20,579 bases of DNA from a virus. Below the pieces are notes generated by a model. It was given only the letters and a program-made list of their open reading frames with translations. It did no database searches and was not told the DNA's origin. This document shows positions 2,977 through 12,178 of the stretch, in pieces (the stretch's first letter is position 1; every line of letters starts with the position of its first letter). The translations under genes were made by a program, and so were the position numbers. The stretch is from the IMG/VR virus record IMGVR_UViG_3300010149_002575, positions 1 through 20,579 of that record; one strand, written 5' to 3'.

Positions 2977-3342
2977 ATGTCAGAAAACCCATATCAACAA
3001 TTAGAATTCTTAACAGGAATATCGTACGCTGGTGAAGAATACGTTGGCATAGTAGTGAACCAAGATAACCAAATCATAACATTTTATGATGTACAATCAA
3101 TCCCATCCAATGAGGCAAGAAAGGACTTCTTGGAGTATGGAGAACTTTGGTGGTGGGAAAGCAATAGACAGATACCAATAGATGTATTTTTGCATCATGA
3201 GATGAAAACATTTTTACCTGCTATAAAGACTTTTGCTATGAAGGATGTAGAAATATTGTTTGGTCCTGTAACTAGCCTACAAAAACTAATTAGAAAAAGA
3301 ATTAAAAGACGTACTGTCCAACTAGTACGTAAAACTGACTAA
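2977..3342 (+). CDS. Conserved-looking phage protein, function unknown
   Basis: This 121-residue protein is the only plus-strand gene in the window. It has an acidic, aromatic middle (LEYGELWWWESNRQIPIDVF) and a strongly basic C-terminus (KLIRKRIKRRTVQLVRK) that could bind nucleic acid. No enzyme motif or signal is visible. I believe similar proteins occur in marine T4-like phages, but I cannot name a function. The gene is divergent from the virion-protein gene and convergent with the DnaE-like gene: the two stop codons overlap (TAA here, TAG on the other strand), so no terminator fits between them. There is no clear ribosome binding site; a TAAATA lies 6 bases before ATG 2977. Confidence 0.75.
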   Translation: MSENPYQQLEFLTGISYAGEEYVGIVVNQDNQIITFYDVQSIPSNEARKDFLEYGELWWWESNRQIPIDVFLHHEMKTFLPAIKTFAMKDVEILFGPVTSLQKLIRKRIKRRTVQLVRKTD

Positions 3343-3914
3343 CCCAACTGCTCAACTATTAAATTTAACTGTGCTATAATAGCAATAGCATATCCATAAC
3401 TGTGACTTTTCTTAAAGAAGTAAGTGTCGTCTTGTGGCTTTACCCAAACATCGGCCTCAATTTCTTGCCATGTCTTGCCAACTAAATGTCTTTTACCAGG
3501 TCGGATCATTGCTAGTATCATTGCTAGTTGATCTACACTTGTAGGAGGATATTGTTTTACAATATCCCAATGGTTGTTGATGTGAAATAATTGCTCTACA
3601 ATGTCTTGATGTTCAAACAATTCCCAAATAGGTTCAGCATCTATTAGACTTTGTAAATGGCTTTCACTTTTTACATCTTTGTATATGTGATTATTAAGGA
3701 AGTCGACCTTGAACCAACCTTGCTCTTCTGCATCTTTATAATCAATGGTGCTGTATCCTTCTATTGGAAGAAAAGGAATGTTCTGAAAGTACACGCCAGT
3801 ATTGTGTTTTGTGTATTCACCGTTCTTCAATATACTAGCAGGAGTTGTCTTAACTAATTTTAAGAACTCATCTCTGTTAAACATATCGATGTCTACATCA
3901 AAATCAATCTTCAT
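3339..3914 (-). CDS. Miniature DnaE-like (Pol III alpha palm/fingers) protein
   Basis: This 191-residue protein lines up, in order, with separated motifs of bacterial DNA polymerase III alpha (DnaE). Residues 4-15 (DFDVDIDMFNRD) match DnaE PDFDVDFCMEKRD, with D6 and D8 at the positions of catalytic Asp401/403. H37-x2-G40-V41 matches HAGGVV. Residues 57-73, ending WFKVDFL, match the segment ending VKFDFLG, with D71 at the third catalytic Asp (555). PTSVDQLAMILAMIRPG (124-140) matches the fingers segment ending RPGP, and FFKKSHSYGYA (166-176) matches GFNKSHSAAYA. The PHP, thumb, clamp-binding and OB regions are missing; DnaE is about 1,160 residues. Activity is unproven. It overlaps mazG by 11 bases. 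A T4-like phage would normally carry its own family B polymerase, so the role is probably different. Confidence 0.7.
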   Translation of the reverse strand: MKIDFDVDIDMFNRDEFLKLVKTTPASILKNGEYTKHNTGVYFQNIPFLPIEGYSTIDYKDAEEQGWFKVDFLNNHIYKDVKSESHLQSLIDAEPIWELFEHQDIVEQLFHINNHWDIVKQYPPTSVDQLAMILAMIRPGKRHLVGKTWQEIEADVWVKPQDDTYFFKKSHSYGYAIAIIAQLNLIVEQLG

Positions 3915-4161
3915 CGCTGAACAACATACTCCACTTCATTAATTTTTCTTTTTTCTCTTTCATTCTATCTGTGATTTGTTCATTGGTGACGAGACCACTC
4001 ATTTTCATTATCTCAATCATGGTCATAACGTCACCAATTTCGTCTTGGAGATTACGCAAATACTTTGTTTTGCCTTTAGTACGGATTACTTTACTACAGG
4101 CTTGTATTAACTCGCCACATTCTTCCATAGTAATGACTAACATTTCTTCGCGTTTTTTCAT
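3904..4161 (-). CDS. mazG: MazG-like nucleoside triphosphate pyrophosphohydrolase
   Basis: This 85-residue all-alpha protein has the MazG metal-binding pattern: EECGE at residues 13-17, then DEIGD at 40-44 (E41, D44). MazG-family enzymes hydrolyse nucleoside triphosphates to monophosphates and pyrophosphate. Marine phage versions have been proposed to act on dNTPs or to affect ppGpp signalling. The length fits a single MazG domain. ATG 4161 overlaps the thyX stop as ATGA, so translation is probably coupled. Placement after thyX suits nucleotide metabolism. The substrate cannot be told from sequence. Confidence 0.85.
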   Translation of the reverse strand: MKKREEMLVITMEECGELIQACSKVIRTKGKTKYLRNLQDEIGDVMTMIEIMKMSGLVTNEQITDRMKEKKEKLMKWSMLFSDED

Positions 4162-4817
4162 ATCTCTTTTCCTTTGAACTCCTCTGCTAACGGAAATATT
4201 TCTGCTATAACATCTGCCACAGCATGAGCAATATCCATATGCTCTTGTTGTGTGCCATTAGCACCACGTAATTCAATATAATGAATCCAACTACGCAACG
4301 TACCATTAACGTACAAGCGGCTTAGTGTGTTTCCTTCCGGAAGTACTGCTCTTGCCTGCTCTTTGGCAATACCGTTGCTTACAGCGAAGTTATAAGCGTC
4401 TAAGGCGGCATCTATAACAGACTTTTGCATTTCCTGCCATGATAGTTCTAATGCAGGATCATCACTAGGAATACTATTTTGCCTATTTTTAGGGTCTTGC
4501 ATTCTTGCTTCACGTAATTCAAATTCTAAATCTTTTGTTGGGTCAGCATAACGTTGACTAAACTCTTGGAAACTAAAACTCCTATGACGTAACAGTTGTC
4601 TTGCTATGTCTCTGGTTGTTTCTACTTCCATACACACTGATACCATTTCAAGTGGTGACCAATGTTTGTGTTTCATCAAATACTTCACAAGTTTTTCGCT
4701 TGTTTCTTTGTTGTTTTGATTATCTGGATTACTTACTCTGGCACAATAGGCCACTAAGTCTAATGCTGACTCATTGTAATCTGGTGCTTGTGAGTGACTA
4801 ATTAATTTTACTTTCAT
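4158..4817 (-). CDS. thyX: Flavin-dependent thymidylate synthase ThyX
   Basis: This 219-residue protein converts dUMP to dTMP with methylene-tetrahydrofolate, FAD and NADPH. The ThyX signature is intact: RHRSFSFQEFSQRY at residues 77-90, which supplies FAD and dUMP contacts. Upstream, the HKHWSPLEMVSV stretch (50-61) is also typical, and the C-terminal half has the usual RSWIHYIELR segment near 175. Length matches the family. The start overlaps the preceding stop as TAATG, so expression is probably translationally coupled. ThyX instead of ThyA is typical of marine T4-like phages. Confidence 0.95.
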   Translation of the reverse strand: MKVKLISHSQAPDYNESALDLVAYCARVSNPDNQNNKETSEKLVKYLMKHKHWSPLEMVSVCMEVETTRDIARQLLRHRSFSFQEFSQRYADPTKDLEFELREARMQDPKNRQNSIPSDDPALELSWQEMQKSVIDAALDAYNFAVSNGIAKEQARAVLPEGNTLSRLYVNGTLRSWIHYIELRGANGTQQEHMDIAHAVADVIAEIFPLAEEFKGKEI

Positions 4818-5521
4818 TATATACCTGCTTGTTCACATGTGTCTTTAATTGCTTGAACCTCATCTGGATTCTTTGCAAATACTTTAAGCCAAAATTGAGC
4901 ATCAATAACATGCTCAATCATTTTGACTTGTTCACTGCTAAACCTTGTTAGCAATTGGTCTCCAGTGTTGCTCAAATAGATCAACCATGGGGATATTTTT
5001 ACAGCTCTGATATCATGAACTGCTCTTGGAGCACTAACTAGTGTAAAATATTCAGTCCAATCAGCATCATTATCATTCGCCCACTCAGTGAGATAAATTA
5101 CACTACGTTCTAATGCTCTCAATCCTGGTTCTTTCTTTACATACTGTAACAAGAACTCATCATACAGTTTATCTTTACTCCAGTCTGCTAATTTCTTAGC
5201 ATTCTTAATCAACCATTCTGCAAACTTTTCTGGTTCTAAATATTCATTGCGAATACAACTACGACCAAACTTAGTAAAACCTTCATAGTATTGGCTACGG
5301 ATAAAGTCTTCCATAGTCTTTGGCTTACTTACAGTTGTGTTCAACTCATAGAACATTTGAAATACACGATAACCTAATCTAACGTGTGTCATATCTTTGT
5401 CTGCCCAACGTCTTTTACGTGGACACATGTGAGCGGCTAGTGTGCGTTCGCTACGAAAAGTTTTTTCGCACCACTTACACTTATTATCACTTTCCAAAGA
5501 TATCTTTGATTGCTTTGTCAT
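4817..5521 (-). CDS. Zinc-finger protein of unknown function
   Basis: This protein of about 234 residues opens with a single compact zinc-finger-like motif, C-x2-C-x12-H-x-C (CKWC ... HMC), close to the N-terminus, followed by a basic RKRRW stretch. The remainder, roughly 195 residues, is mostly predicted alpha-helical with many Trp, Lys and Glu, and is not recognised. The arrangement suggests a DNA- or RNA-binding protein; this is inference. The start is uncertain: ATG 5521 or ATG 5530 are both possible and neither has a good ribosome binding site. Either start overlaps the upstream gene by 35-44 bases in another frame, unusually long for this region. Its stop overlaps the thyX start. Confidence 0.7.
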   Translation of the reverse strand: MTKQSKISLESDNKCKWCEKTFRSERTLAAHMCPRKRRWADKDMTHVRLGYRVFQMFYELNTTVSKPKTMEDFIRSQYYEGFTKFGRSCIRNEYLEPEKFAEWLIKNAKKLADWSKDKLYDEFLLQYVKKEPGLRALERSVIYLTEWANDNDADWTEYFTLVSAPRAVHDIRAVKISPWLIYLSNTGDQLLTRFSSEQVKMIEHVIDAQFWLKVFAKNPDEVQAIKDTCEQAGI

Positions 5522-5957
5522 CGTAACCATGTGCTTCTGCTAATTGTTTTAATTCATCTTTAGTGTTTATATCTAATATCATTTCCAACTCATCTGATTT
5601 GAGTGTGGGAAACAAGTCTGATAAAAACTCTGTAACCTTGTTCTTTTTCTTTCTGCTGTTTGGTGGCTTGATGTAAGGATGAAATTCTATCTTACCTGTG
5701 CCACACATACTCATCAACATCCATTGCAATTCTGGGTGCTTGTAAATCTCTTCAAAATTTTTGTTTACAAGTTCATTAACCATAAAAATAAAATGTGCGG
5801 CATTCTTGCCTTGCACACTACTTGCATATCTCATCATCATCCATGTGCTAAATGCTTTTGTCTGTTCAGCATTTAGTCTATTATACCAACCTTTGTCTCT
5901 TTTGTCAATGGCGGCCATAACAGTTTTCAATGGCAATGCTGGTTGCTTCTTAGGCAT
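5487..5957 (-). CDS. Conserved-looking phage protein, function unknown
   Basis: The protein has 156 residues. It has no signal peptide and no known catalytic motif. Features are an N-terminal basic region, a helical segment WYNRLNAEQTKAFSTWMMMR, a basic linker PPNSRKKKNK and an acidic helical C-terminus. It may be a replication accessory factor by context, but I do not recognise it. The frame can be extended to 6005, but ATG 5957 is chosen because AAGGA lies 5 bases upstream and overlap with the nucleosidase is then only 8 bases. A perfect-consensus sigma70 promoter lies inside its 5' third. Confidence 0.7.
   Translation of the reverse strand: MPKKQPALPLKTVMAAIDKRDKGWYNRLNAEQTKAFSTWMMMRYASSVQGKNAAHFIFMVNELVNKNFEEIYKHPELQWMLMSMCGTGKIEFHPYIKPPNSRKKKNKVTEFLSDLFPTLKSDELEMILDINTKDELKQLAEAHGYDDKAIKDIFGK
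5880..5908 (-). promoter_or_regulatory. Perfect-consensus sigma70 promoter inside a gene
   Basis: On the minus strand TTGACA (5908-5903) is separated by 17 bases from TATAAT (5885-5880), matching both hexamers exactly. It lies inside the 156-residue gene, where it encodes part of AIDKRDKGWYN. Predicted transcripts would start near 5873 and cover the zinc-finger gene, thyX, mazG and the DnaE-like gene. No open frame of useful length starts immediately after it. Confidence 0.55.
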
Positions 5958-6477
5958 GATAGTCCTTGTAGATTGTAATAAAGTGTTCTTCGCCCTTTGC
6001 AACATTGTCTAGCCAACTTGTATCTGCACTGTCGTCTGCATTGTCGCTTACATACTTGTAACATTTGAAATCAATGCCTCTTTGCTGACAGGCTTTTGCA
6101 ATAGCAAATGCCTCCATATCAACAACGTGAGCTGGTATTTCTAAATCTGGATCTGTAACAAAGTTATCTCCTGTGCTACATGTATACCCAATACCATTTG
6201 AAATAGTAATTGGATCTTTTGGTAACATCATTTCTATTGCCTCAGGACACTTGCCTTTATCTCGTTCAACAAAGTTAACCATTTCATGGCATCCTTCTTT
6301 TAACACAATACCACCTGCTGTTCCAAAATTCCAAACTCTAATTGGCTTGAACTTCTGTATTAACCTAGCGGCTGTTAGTGCGGCATTGATTTTACCTACA
6401 CCAGTAAAAAATACATTATCCCATTTGGCCATGTTAGGTGCCTCATGTTCTAATGCTATTAAAATTAAGTCTTTCAT
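5950..6477 (-). CDS. mtnN: MTA/SAH nucleosidase (PNP/UDP phosphorylase family)
   Basis: This 175-residue enzyme would cleave S-adenosylhomocysteine or methylthioadenosine to adenine and the thio-ribose. It carries the family landmarks in order: an early acidic site LEHE (residues 9-12), TGVGKINAA (25-33), FGTAGG (51-56), STGDNF (101-106), VDMEAFAIAK with the nucleoside-contacting Met-Glu at 121-122, and SDNAD with the catalytic-type Asp at 145. It is shorter than the E. coli enzyme (232), so loops are trimmed and exact substrate choice is uncertain. ATG 6477 overlaps the apt stop as ATGA. A longer frame to 6516 is rejected for lack of a start signal. Its product adenine is the substrate of the gene just upstream. 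Confidence 0.8.
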   Translation of the reverse strand: MKDLILIALEHEAPNMAKWDNVFFTGVGKINAALTAARLIQKFKPIRVWNFGTAGGIVLKEGCHEMVNFVERDKGKCPEAIEMMLPKDPITISNGIGYTCSTGDNFVTDPDLEIPAHVVDMEAFAIAKACQQRGIDFKCYKYVSDNADDSADTSWLDNVAKGEEHFITIYKDYHA

Positions 6478-7004
6478 TCGTTTATATCCATGACGCTGAA
6501 TGTTTCCACTCCGCAATAGTCCTTTAGTTTAGCAGTTCCTTCTAAGAAAGTCAAGTCTATTATGCAGGCATAATTTATATCATATCCTCCTGCTTGTTTA
6601 ATTAATTCTACCATAGCATTAGCAGTACCACCTGTAGCACTTACATCATCTACAATGCATATTCTATCAGTGTATGCAAACTGAACACTGTCTAGCATTT
6701 CTAAAGTTTCTTCACCGTACTCTAATGTGTATGAATATGACTTTACTTTGCCCGGCAATTTACCAGGCTTACGAACAATGTGTAAAGGGATGCCTAATGC
6801 TAGTGCAACAGGAGCACCCCATATAAAGCCACGAGCATCGGGTGCAACAATCTGTGTTGCTTTGATACTTCTGCAATATGCAACGACCTTATCTACAGTG
6901 TACTTAAATGCTTTTGGGTCTTCGAGTATGCTTGATATATCTTTGAACATAACTCCCTCTATTGGGAAGTCAGGTACAGTACGGAGTATTTTATTGAGAT
7001 CCAT
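6474..7004 (-). CDS. apt: Adenine phosphoribosyltransferase
   Basis: This 176-residue enzyme joins adenine to PRPP to give AMP. The sequence follows Apt closely: a TVPDFPIEGVMFKDIS start, APDARGFIWGAPVALALG (54-71), the adenine-site RKPGKLPG (78-85), LEYGEETLEM (94-103) and the PRPP loop CIVDDVSATGGT (116-127). Length matches bacterial Apt (about 170-183). An upstream TTG would add nine residues, but ATG 7004 overlaps the lipoprotein stop as TAATG, which is typical coupling, so that start is used. It lies between the lipoprotein and the nucleosidase and fits adenine salvage after SAH or MTA cleavage. Confidence 0.93.
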   Translation of the reverse strand: MDLNKILRTVPDFPIEGVMFKDISSILEDPKAFKYTVDKVVAYCRSIKATQIVAPDARGFIWGAPVALALGIPLHIVRKPGKLPGKVKSYSYTLEYGEETLEMLDSVQFAYTDRICIVDDVSATGGTANAMVELIKQAGGYDINYACIIDLTFLEGTAKLKDYCGVETFSVMDINE

Positions 7005-7489
7005 TACTGAGGGAACACCCTTAGAGGACAATTTTGAGAATACCTTCTCTTTTGAATATGTCCACTTAAAATAACTTTGTCTCCTGTGGTAAATGTGTAA
7101 TCACCTGCTTCTTGTGATACACTGATTCCTGACCCACCATTGTGTATATCTACAAACAACATCACACCTGGTCTCGACATACCTTGTCCAACTCTATTAC
7201 CAATTGCATTTCCTATTGCGACACCTGCTCCTGTTGCAAGTACTTTTGCTAATTCGCTTTCGTCCTTTGCAACACGATTACCAACGTAACCACCAGTAAT
7301 AGCACCTGCGGCTTGTGCTGTTTCAACATCGCCTTCTATGATAATATCCTTAACAGATATAACTGTACCGGTTACAAACGGACATGGCTCTCTGGCCTCA
7401 TCACGTTTAGTTACTTCAGGTTTAAGACTGCCACCAACCGCACAACCTGTGAGTGCTAAAATTAACAACGTACTTAATAATACTCTCAT
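7004..7489 (-). CDS. Outer-membrane lipoprotein with glycine zipper (SlyB/17-kDa-like)
   Basis: This 161-residue protein begins with a lipoprotein signal peptide, MRVLLSTLLILALTGC, with lipobox LTGC and the lipidated Cys at 16. Cys+2 is Val, not Asp, so outer-membrane sorting is likely. Residues about 58-103 form a glycine zipper with GAITGGYVGNRV and GAGVAIGNAIGNRVG, as in the SlyB/PcP and rickettsial 17-kDa antigen family. Before and after are beta-prone segments (VTGTVISVKDI and DYTFTTGDKVILSGHI). The family is bacterial, found in the Gram-negative outer membrane; a phage copy is unusual. A ribosome binding site AGGAGA overlaps the metK stop. It may stabilise the envelope during infection or be host-derived cargo; neither can be decided here. 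Confidence 0.8.
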   Translation of the reverse strand: MRVLLSTLLILALTGCAVGGSLKPEVTKRDEAREPCPFVTGTVISVKDIIIEGDVETAQAAGAITGGYVGNRVAKDESELAKVLATGAGVAIGNAIGNRVGQGMSRPGVMLFVDIHNGGSGISVSQEAGDYTFTTGDKVILSGHIQKRRYSQNCPLRVFPQ

Positions 7490-7497
7490 AATATCTC

Positions 7498-8598
7498 CTA
7501 GAACAAATTAACTTGTTCCCAAGGTAAATCTGCTTTACCAAAATGACCATAATTAGTTGTGGTCGTTAAATCTAAACCAAACAAGTCAAACCTATCAATG
7601 ATACCTTTGGGTGTTAAGTCTACTAATTGTTGAATTTCGTGTGCTAAGTCAGTTCTAACTTTGCCATCTGCATACACATAAACACTAGTTGGTTCTTTGA
7701 TACCAATAGCATAACTTAATTGTACTGTGGCATTCTGTGCTTTACCACTTGCTACAATGTTCTTAGCCAAGTAACGTGCCATGTAAGCCGCACTTCTGTC
7801 TACCTTGGTACAGTCTTTGCCACTGAATGCTCCGCCACCGTGCGGTGCGTAACCGCCGTAAGTATCAACAATAATCTTTCTACCAGTTAATCCTGTGTCA
7901 CCATCTGGACCACCAACAACAAACTTGCCAGTTGGATTGATCAAGTATTCAGTATTCTCATCAATTGGTGCATTACATTCTTGTAATGCTTTTACTACTA
8001 ATTGTCTAATAGCATCACGAGTGTGTTCAAGTGGATAGTCTTCTGTGTGCTGACTGCTACAAACAACTTTGCTAATTCTTAGAGGTGTATTAATGTCTGC
8101 ATATTCCATAGTGACTTGACTTTTGCTGTCTGGTCCTAACCATGTACTTGCTTTATTTCTTTCTTGCTCTAAAAATTTTAGAATCTTGTGACTGTAATAA
8201 ATTGCACTAGGCATGTAATCTTCTGTTTCATTACATGCATATCCAAACATCAGTCCTTGGTCACCAGCACCAAACGTGTCTGTGCCTAATGCAATATCAG
8301 GTGATTGTCCGTGTAGTTCATTGTAAACTGTTAGTGTAGCCCAATGGAAGCCATCTTGCTCGTAACCAATTTCTTTTACTACGTCTCTGACAATTTTTTC
8401 AATTGCCATTTTGTTAAATTTATCACTCTTGTACTCACCTGCCAATGTAACCATGTTGGTAGTAACCAGTGTTTCTACAGCCGCTCTGTGGCTTAGTTTT
8501 CCATCAATTAAAAATGTTGCTACAGCATCTGAAATATGATCTGCAACTTTATCCGGGTGTCCAATACTTACACTTTCGCTAGTAAATTGGTAACTCAT
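7498..8598 (-). CDS. metK: S-adenosylmethionine synthetase
   Basis: This 366-residue enzyme makes SAM from methionine and ATP. All main motifs are present: GHPDKVADHISDA near residue 13, GAGDQGLMFGYA near 110, GPDGDTGLTGRKIIVDTYGG near 230-250 and GGGAFSGKDCTKVDRSAAY near 253-272. Length is close to bacterial MetK (about 384), so it looks complete and functional. The ATG overlaps the preceding gene's stop as ATGA, with AGGAGA upstream. It heads the lipoprotein-apt-nucleosidase set. No methyltransferase lies in this window, so the SAM consumer must be elsewhere in the phage or in the host. Confidence 0.96.
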   Translation of the reverse strand: MSYQFTSESVSIGHPDKVADHISDAVATFLIDGKLSHRAAVETLVTTNMVTLAGEYKSDKFNKMAIEKIVRDVVKEIGYEQDGFHWATLTVYNELHGQSPDIALGTDTFGAGDQGLMFGYACNETEDYMPSAIYYSHKILKFLEQERNKASTWLGPDSKSQVTMEYADINTPLRISKVVCSSQHTEDYPLEHTRDAIRQLVVKALQECNAPIDENTEYLINPTGKFVVGGPDGDTGLTGRKIIVDTYGGYAPHGGGAFSGKDCTKVDRSAAYMARYLAKNIVASGKAQNATVQLSYAIGIKEPTSVYVYADGKVRTDLAHEIQQLVDLTPKGIIDRFDLFGLDLTTTTNYGHFGKADLPWEQVNLF

Positions 8599-10553: not shown

Positions 10554-10582
10554 ATTTTATCTTATCTCAATGAAAAAGTCAA
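10554..10582 (-). promoter_or_regulatory. Sigma70-type promoter abutting the uvsW start
   Basis: TTGACT (10582-10577) and TAAAAT (10559-10554) are 17 bases apart on the minus strand. The -35 box lies in the last codons of the receptor gene. Only seven bases lie between TAAAAT and ATG 10546, so transcription should begin at or one base before the start codon. It probably drives the long operon from uvsW onward. Confidence 0.65.
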
Positions 10583-12178
10583 GAAGATTTTTTGTCCACC
10601 GACATTATATCCTGGAAGTATTTCAGTTACATCATCAAGTAAGTCTTGTACTGTTAAAGAAACTTCAAACTTGTCTGAAACTTTTCTTGTTAGCACAAAG
10701 TCTATTGAGGATATATCTTCTAATACTGCACCATCATATGGCCCAGGTTCTCTTTCAAACTGCCCACGGTATCTAAGTTCAGCAGTTGAATTTCCAAAAC
10801 TTGCAAAATATGACACACTGCCTTTGTACTCAGGTACTCTAGGTTGATCTGTATCTGTGTATGCTAAGAATACATTTAGACTTCCATATGGTACTGGATA
10901 CGTATCTTGGAACCTAATACCTTTTGTGTCGTACTTTCCTGTGTTTACATACTGGCTAATAGTTCCGTCATAGTCAATGTTTTCTTCAAACTTGTAACTG
11001 AACAATGAGAAACCTATGTAACCAAGTTCAATACCCATACCTTCTTCTGGTTGTAGATTTGGATTTGGTTGTACCCATGAATCTCCATACTGCTGATACA
11101 ATGTTGGATTTCTATAACTAGTACTGAAGTTACCATAAAGCCCTTCTAACTCATACCCAACACGATAAACTGTTGCATCTTCACTAATACGAGCACCAAC
11201 TTGAAAAGTATCTCTAAAGTTAATAGTTGCATAACCACTAACATTATCTTGGTTTTCACCAGCGTATTCTTCTTTGTCGTAAGTAATACCTGCAATAAGT
11301 TTTGCTGGTGGATAACCTAGTTCAAAAGATTCTCTGGCATCAAAGTAATAACGTTTTGCATCACTTTGCCAAGTGCTAACACCTTCAGTGAAGTATTCGC
11401 TATCTGTGTTACTGTAACCAAGAGTTAGATTGTTATTTCTAATACTGATATCAGTTTTCTCGCCGGACTGTAAACAATCATTTGACTGTGAAAACGATGC
11501 AGTATAGCAGTTGTCATAGTCATAATCATAATCAACATGTGACATTGCCACTGTGAATCCTAGCACATCTTTAACTGACTTAATGGTTGTGTTTTTATAA
11601 TCATCTTGTTCAGTGTTATCATTACGCACACTGTCATTGACTACATCAAACGATGTAATACTAATTGCATCAAACAGTGCTACATTTAGCAATCGGTGAT
11701 CTTCACCAATTCTTACAACACCTTGATTTGATATCTCATCATTAATAAACACAGTACCACCAAGACTACCAGAGCCATAAAGAACACCGTTTGGTCCACT
11801 AACAACTTTTACTGATTCCAACCCACTAACAATATCATGTGCAAAGTCATACCAACCTGCACCTGCATCATTAACCGGGACACCATTTCTGTAAACAGTT
11901 GTGTGTACTGTTTGAGCACCACGCTCATTGAATAATGCCGCACCGCCATAACCACCTGCAACAAATGATGTTGCTGGCATTAATGTTTCAATCAAAGAAA
12001 GATCCTGGGATACATCAGTTGCGTCTAGTATTTCTAAACTACCGACAACCACAATTTCTTCTATGTAGTCATTATTATTTTCTTCTGCCTTTAGATCAAA
12101 TGCAATCATCATCACTAACATAATAAATGCCGTTATATATAATGGCATAAAGTTTTTATCAAAATTTCCTAGTTTCAT
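10562..12178 (-). CDS. TonB-dependent outer-membrane receptor (BtuB-like plug and barrel)
   Basis: This 538-residue protein looks like a complete TonB-dependent transporter. A signal peptide (hydrophobic about 11-27, probable cut after LKA at 31) is followed by a TonB-box-like EEIVVVGS (40-47). The plug domain spans about 48-150 with RGAQTVHTTVYRNGVPVND and the hallmark LESVKVVSGPNGVLYGSGSLGGTVFI. The rest alternates aromatic residues as in a 22-strand beta-barrel. An Asp/Tyr-rich loop with two cysteines (224, 235) may be extracellular, with a disulfide or calcium site as in BtuB; this is inference. It is shorter than BtuB (614) and ends FLTFSLR, without the usual terminal aromatic residue. 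AAGAGG lies 4 bases before ATG. Substrate is unknown; cobalamin or a siderophore is possible. It is flanked by phage genes. Confidence 0.88.
   Translation of the reverse strand: MKLGNFDKNFMPLYITAFIMLVMMIAFDLKAEENNNDYIEEIVVVGSLEILDATDVSQDLSLIETLMPATSFVAGGYGGAALFNERGAQTVHTTVYRNGVPVNDAGAGWYDFAHDIVSGLESVKVVSGPNGVLYGSGSLGGTVFINDEISNQGVVRIGEDHRLLNVALFDAISITSFDVVNDSVRNDNTEQDDYKNTTIKSVKDVLGFTVAMSHVDYDYDYDNCYTASFSQSNDCLQSGEKTDISIRNNNLTLGYSNTDSEYFTEGVSTWQSDAKRYYFDARESFELGYPPAKLIAGITYDKEEYAGENQDNVSGYATINFRDTFQVGARISEDATVYRVGYELEGLYGNFSTSYRNPTLYQQYGDSWVQPNPNLQPEEGMGIELGYIGFSLFSYKFEENIDYDGTISQYVNTGKYDTKGIRFQDTYPVPYGSLNVFLAYTDTDQPRVPEYKGSVSYFASFGNSTAELRYRGQFEREPGPYDGAVLEDISSIDFVLTRKVSDKFEVSLTVQDLLDDVTEILPGYNVGGQKIFLTFSLR

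Follow-up and report, generated by a model that had tools for sequence, protein, structure and literature searches.

Does the short open reading frame at positions 3339–3914 of this viral DNA encode a complete polymerase core, or part of one? We refer to the whole analyzed stretch of 20,579 bases, from an uncultured virus, as the window, and to the frame, which lies on the minus strand, as ORF-C. An earlier note had placed the frame correctly, without giving a strand, and had read its 191-residue product as a self-contained miniature of the DnaE catalytic core. Our analyses instead indicate that ORF-C is half an enzyme, which the earlier note took for the whole. Based on its match to PHROG 11778, its AF2 model and VIA-align comparisons, the protein is probably the C-terminal half of a two-piece, minimal family C (Pol III alpha) nucleotidyltransferase.

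Five DnaE motifs had been recognized in ORF-C, and indeed all are present and in the DnaE order. Specifically, these are, on the minus strand, D6-x-D8-x-D10 (3885–3899), which aligns with D401/D403/D405 of Escherichia coli DnaE and is invariant in sets of 26 and 61 sequences; H37-N-T-G40 (3795–3806), the HxxGV motif, with H37 and G40 invariant in both sets; K69-V-D71 (3702–3710), also invariant, which contains the third catalytic aspartate and is aligned by profile with K553-F-D555; R138-P139-G140 (3495–3503), aligned with the DnaE RPG motif and with R138 and P139 invariant; and K168-KSHS (3399–3413), aligned with the E. coli NKSHS sequence and with K168 and H171 invariant. The frame at 3339–3914 encodes predicted metal-binding palm strands together with remnants of the fingers. 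As had also been proposed, the PHP, thumb, clamp-binding and OB parts are missing, the chain being only 191 residues long and without a Pfam match, and the fingers are reduced to short pieces. In its palm fold, its catalytic aspartates and its ordered HxxGV, KxD, RPG and KSHS motifs ORF-C resembles DnaE and PolC, whereas it differs from them in these missing or shortened domains.

A profile search matched residues 4–189 of ORF-C to PHROG 11778, annotated as "DNA polymerase", with an E value of 3.2e-69, and all 61 aligned sequences, the window included, matched this family. Residues 46–141 matched PHROG 405, the full-length DnaE family (E 2.7e-5), as did 42 of the 61 aligned sequences, the window again included, at E ≤ 0.001. 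Single-sequence searches of ORF-C against Pfam and NCBIfam gave no match, a single-sequence PDB search did not find a polymerase, and DNA_pol3_finger of Pfam was matched by one of the 61 family members (E 0.006). Sequence comparison links ORF-C weakly to DnaE of solved structure, with an E value of 0.13 in HMMER and, in hhalign, a probability of 71% and an E value of 5e-6.

The residues expected at a family C active site are strictly conserved. D6, D8, D10, K69 and D71 are invariant in all 61 aligned ORF-C sequences, the window included, as are the columns H37, G40, R138, P139, K141 and H171, and the four aspartates and K69 are likewise kept in the 26-sequence set, which includes ten named phages. 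In E. coli DnaE, where we take D401, D403 and D555 to be the catalytic triad, the profile alignment places DFDVDF from D401 onward and KFD at K553-F554-D555. The HMMER alignment yielded an alternative register two residues off (D6 = D403), and an ungapped match of D4-F-D-V-D to D401-F-D-V-D gives the same shifted register. We prefer to align D6 with D401, because D4 is unconserved while D6, D8 and D10 are conserved, and because relatives that begin MPDIDIDF put D6, D8 and D10 on D401, D403 and D405. This register agrees with the previous assignment of D6, D8 and D71 to the catalytic aspartates of DnaE.

The ORF-C genes of two other loci, L001 and L003, are nucleotide-identical to that of the window, and a third (L002) has three synonymous differences. 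The dN/dS ratio was about 0.03 for L004/L005 and 0.05–0.10 for five further loci compared with the window, the latter values being rough because dS is about 1.5 or more and near saturation. Four closer pairs among the relatives gave ratios of 0.04–0.07. Purifying selection thus acts on ORF-C.

An AF2 model of ORF-C was built from the window sequence and 60 relatives in IMG/VR, 61 in all, and has a mean pLDDT of 93.7 and a pTM of 0.80. Foldseek searches of the PDB with this model, an approach that the earlier note had suggested, returned Pol III alpha for each of the first seven matches (E 0.009–0.15); none reached an E value of 0.001 or better. VIA-align superimposed 187 residues on PolC (3f2b; Z 9.9, rmsd 3.4) and gave Z scores of 9.8 with 3e0d and 8.8 with E. 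coli DnaE (2hnh). The top 11 rows had Z scores of 7.2–9.9 across 184–189 residues, and the top 14 were bacterial replicative polymerases throughout, the first unrelated row having a Z score of 3.7. Twelve of these 14 are named as Pol III alpha or PolC; the other two, 9qpc and 9qrl, are titled simply "DNA polymerase", yet aligned at PolC-like residue numbers. The clear fold matches of the predicted structure are thus to family C (bacterial replicative) polymerases only. The family C alignment spans the entire model, residues 1–191, and on E. coli DnaE about 185 residues align within 397–780, most of that stretch being skipped. Together with the PHROG 11778 match, this full-length fold match upholds the proposed relation to the DnaE/PolC palm, which along the whole chain is seen in the fold, and in the PHROG 405 profile only for residues 46–141.

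The reading of ORF-C as a self-contained core did not survive. The GxGRGS (GS) motif is absent from the chain, which begins at the catalytic DxDxD, and, unlike in DnaE and PolC, this motif is carried by another protein, the N-terminal partner (hereafter N) of relatives. In 11 of 13 related records, PF07733 matched one other small frame, around the GRGS region. Because of this second frame, and because the ORF-C model covers only E. coli 397–780, we dropped the stand-alone miniature. The second small protein corresponds to PHROG 11127 and stops just before DxDxD. All ten N frames that we extracted contain GxGRGS, and they end with EF(L/F)(K/N/R/E) plus at most one residue. On the 20,579 bases of the window the PF07733 profile had no match, and the N gene was not found on this fragment.

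The break point of N is nearly constant. Among 83 N copies from IMG/VR (74 distinct, one cut by its contig), the distance from GxGRGS to the end was exactly 35 residues in 72 and 36–40 in 10. GRGS was one of the two patterns in the scan that fetched 80 of these 83 copies, which in part guarantees that they carry the motif; the fixed spacing between motif and stop is no artefact of the pattern choice. In an alignment of 46 N copies, all matched PF07733 at E ≤ 0.001, and the GxGRGS residues were invariant, with the same selection by motif applying. A model of N (pLDDT 86.8) matched 13 listed polymerase entries with Z scores of 8.3–13.1, covering N residues 54/55–158. When both models are placed on the same polymerases, N and C tile without overlap: at 275–393 and 397–780 of E. 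coli DnaE (2hnh), 292–455 and 458–837 of 2hpi, presumably the Taq polymerase structure, 303–413 and 417–807 of Mycobacterium tuberculosis 7pu7, and 821–965 and 968–1295 of PolC (3f2b). When aligned with DnaE by profile, N likewise reaches no farther than E. coli residue 393. No fused or adjacent N–C pair was seen at the 83 N loci, where C-type proteins were sought with a crude regular expression. N genes adjoin a Cpn10 (GroES)-type gene at 86 of 94 N loci, duplicates included, as judged by tblastn (E < 1e-8) with the phage PBECO4 copy, itself a Pfam Cpn10 match (E 2e-5). The gene beside N in Alishewanella phage Slicko01 was considered as GroES-like and rejected, as it has no Cpn10 match.

Both halves are widespread in large phages. 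By tblastn, ORF-C was found in 63 of 50,697 phage records, each at ≥80% query coverage and <60% identity. The best 60 of these are mostly 280–490 kb, and hosts among the listed matches include Klebsiella, Escherichia, Salmonella, Erwinia, Pseudomonas, Agrobacterium, Xanthomonas and others. IMG/VR yielded 151 stretches with ORF-C when a single protein was the query and at least 572 with an alignment query, 80 of each being kept, as well as at least 597 stretches with the N half. When the best 60 of 63 phage records were compared for each half, 59 were common to N and C. Phage RAS14 had only N among the listed matches, and its C half was found in a separate search; W12-3, an unverified record of 109.5 kb, has C, while N was not detected. 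Profile searches of 26 records, each picked for holding one half, found both halves in 15, only C in 6 and only N in 5; each of the 13 records with a length of at least 250 kb had both. Slicko01, a circular genome of 141 kb, also has both, ∼11 kb apart. The largest record with only C is 221.6 kb (G004), and N was likewise absent from a 98.6-kb record (G002) whose ORF-C gene is L003. The window, G002 and G004, which show no N, are or could be incomplete.

These phages were expected to have a family B polymerase, and 11 of the 13 related records do have one, as do 2 of 2 more; the two related records in which it was not found are fragments of 98.6 and 83.4 kb. Of the 13 records that are at least 250 kb long, 11 were tested and all of these have it; it was not found on the 20.6-kb window fragment. 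A family A polymerase as the main replicase was rejected, as none of 13 records had one. In three phages the family B polymerase lies in two open frames (Slicko01, 3529–5033; Atu_ph07, 212336–213688; Paride, 88906–92683).

A split minimal Pol III alpha has been predicted in group 2.2 jumbo phages (Iyer et al. 2021, PMC7824862). The available text of that paper describes an NTP-binding N protein and a Mg2+/template-binding C protein that are encoded by distant genes and carried beside a family B polymerase, and it names Atu_ph07 as a carrier, in which we also find both frames. The window ORF-C, which comes from an uncultured virus, joins this described system. Relative to that text, our analyses add the exact break point, the residue invariance, the tiling of the models and the purifying selection, as well as a 141-kb carrier of both halves and a near-constant PHROG 11637 neighbor. 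In phage CBB, a truncated Pol III alpha of 172 residues, CBB_328, has been reported (PMC5259590), a length equal to that of the N partner that we found in CBB (172 residues matched), and gp316 of Atu_ph07 is a predicted Pol III alpha (PMC6102473). The available descriptions of CBB_328 and gp316 make no mention of a C half (PMC5259590, PMC6102473). Titles and abstracts of the open-licence literature yielded no experimental test of the N/C pair.

The neighborhood of ORF-C is that of replication genes. A convergent gene on the plus strand (2977–3342), encoding a 121-residue protein of PHROG 11637 (E 4e-34), runs 4 bases into the end of ORF-C. By tblastn this gene was present at 184 of 190 ORF-C loci, a set in which some contigs were fetched twice, on the opposite strand in 184 of 184 and adjacent (gap <120 bases) in 174 of 184. 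BLAST did not find it at L085, L090 and L167, and three other loci had no downstream room. In an alignment of 23 PHROG 11637 sequences, W58, W59, E61 and the basic C-terminal K107-R108-x-K110-R111 are invariant. A primase and/or replicative helicase lies a few kilobases downstream of ORF-C in 9 of 10 annotated relatives, XacN1 being the exception, and UvsX, UvsY, a UvsW-type or another helicase is annotated upstream in 7 of 10. The window also encodes SSB, UvsX-like, UvsW-like and primase genes. Upstream of ORF-C, at 3904–8598 on the minus strand, are MazG-like, ThyX, nucleoside phosphorylase and phosphoribosyltransferase genes, and this nucleotide and one-carbon run includes a three-domain S-adenosylmethionine synthetase (7498–8598, minus strand). 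A small lipoprotein-like frame at 7004–7489 (minus strand) has a glycine-zipper match too weak to pass our cut-off (E 0.0016). At 10562–12178 (minus strand), amid phage replication genes, is a 538-residue TonB-dependent receptor with a Plug domain (E 1e-11) and a beta-barrel (E 5e-13). It has relatives at 41 IMG/VR loci, and several of the contigs concerned also have ORF-C, for example 3300006990_004842, 3300046411_000678 and 3300017735_002163.

Taken together, the most likely function for ORF-C is as half of a metal-dependent nucleotidyltransferase that would assemble in trans and serve in replication or repair. In family C folds, the incoming nucleotide is held by its triphosphate in the GxGRGS loop. 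ORF-C would provide the two-metal site, D6, D8 and D71 with D10 and K69, and bring short fingers remnants in the form of the RPG and KSHS helices, and a separate protein of ∼155–190 residues, encoded elsewhere, would provide the GxGRGS loop. The two proteins probably associate, so that a single palm active site is restored, and the N gene of the window's own virus would presumably lie beyond the sequenced fragment. Since there are no thumb, PHP, clamp-binding or OB parts, we would expect few nucleotides to be added per binding event. Its place is probably alongside the family B replicase, in tasks such as gap filling, repair or strand-specific synthesis. Two features sit uneasily with this assembly: the genes are far apart and N adjoins a Cpn10-type gene, so that the proteins may not be coexpressed, and the loss of the thumb and most of the fingers leaves the holding of DNA unexplained. 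If active, the pair would rank with the smallest cores of family C polymerases, would indicate that a palm can still work with a break separating the nucleotide-binding loop from the catalytic aspartates, and would help to explain a second, bacterial-type enzyme in phages with a family B replicase. Because the two proteins are short, widespread and free of accessory domains, the pair is directly testable.

The paired halves might, alternatively, no longer polymerize but, with the DnaE shape kept, scaffold or regulate the replisome of the phage or of its host. The loss of the thumb, PHP and most of the fingers, the family B polymerase of 11 of 13 related records and the position of ORF-C among replication genes would suit such a role, which we nevertheless consider unlikely: shape alone does not need D6, D8, D10, K69 and D71 to be invariant in 61 sequences and GxGRGS to be so in 46, albeit motif-selected, N copies. 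Indeed, the conservation of catalytic residues in both halves disfavors the regulator and decoy functions that the earlier note had put forward. It seems very improbable that ORF-C has nothing to do with the N gene and acts solo or with host DnaE, for which it would be a decoy or a dominant-negative partner. In favor of this reading, N was not found on the window fragment or on the 98.6-kb record that shares its ORF-C sequence. Against it, both halves occur in every one of the 13 records that reach 250 kb, N and C are complementary in their tiling on four polymerases, and the diversity of hosts fits a host-specific decoy poorly.

Pol beta-like folds have many template-independent and signaling roles, and the thumb and DNA-holding domains are lost here, as might be the case in a template-independent or signaling nucleotidyltransferase with the same fold that is not a DNA polymerase. 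Given that every clear fold match is a DNA polymerase and that ORF-C sits in a replication cluster, we regard this as rather unlikely. The large deletions relative to DnaE could also mark what is left of a captured DnaE gene in decay. This is scarcely credible for frames that are intact and near-constant in length in many lineages, and we rejected it on the dN/dS values of about 0.03–0.10, of which the comparisons with the window are rough (dS about 1.5 or more), near-identical copies excepted.

A variant of the trans-assembled polymerase would have three parts, the GRGS protein, the metal-site protein and the PHROG 11637 protein, with the split having arisen by insertion of an intron or homing endonuclease. 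We hold this combined proposal to be rather improbable. In it, the PHROG 11637 protein, with its basic KR-x-KR tail, would replace the thumb as the DNA-holding subunit. By analogy, a mobile intron or homing endonuclease inserted at the catalytic motif may have started the split, as a LAGLIDADG gene lies within the DnaE gene of Lysinibacillus phage LC76P1.

The LC76P1 gene (L116, 7080–11626) is broken at the catalytic DxDxD motif. Its gp68 contains PHP and PF07733 12–103 and has the C-terminal end FLNPSRVSLAD; the LAGLIDADG-type gene (E 1.5e-12) follows gp68, and a TIDIDF frame lies upstream of gp70. An Rfam scan of this region found no known intron at gathering scores. Like the split Pol III, this is a phage family C enzyme with the same DxDxD break; unlike it, PHP and finger domains are retained (Pfam) and the pieces are neighbors on either side of the LAGLIDADG-type gene. 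There are sequence hints that larger DnaE genes in other phages, too, may be split just before D401. PHROG 13169 and PHROG 12219 match E. coli DnaE 9–397 and 399–903, respectively. Bacillus phage KLEB27-3 (L115, 6984–11354) encodes DnaE as two frames around an annotated HNH endonuclease, with the break elsewhere in the protein.
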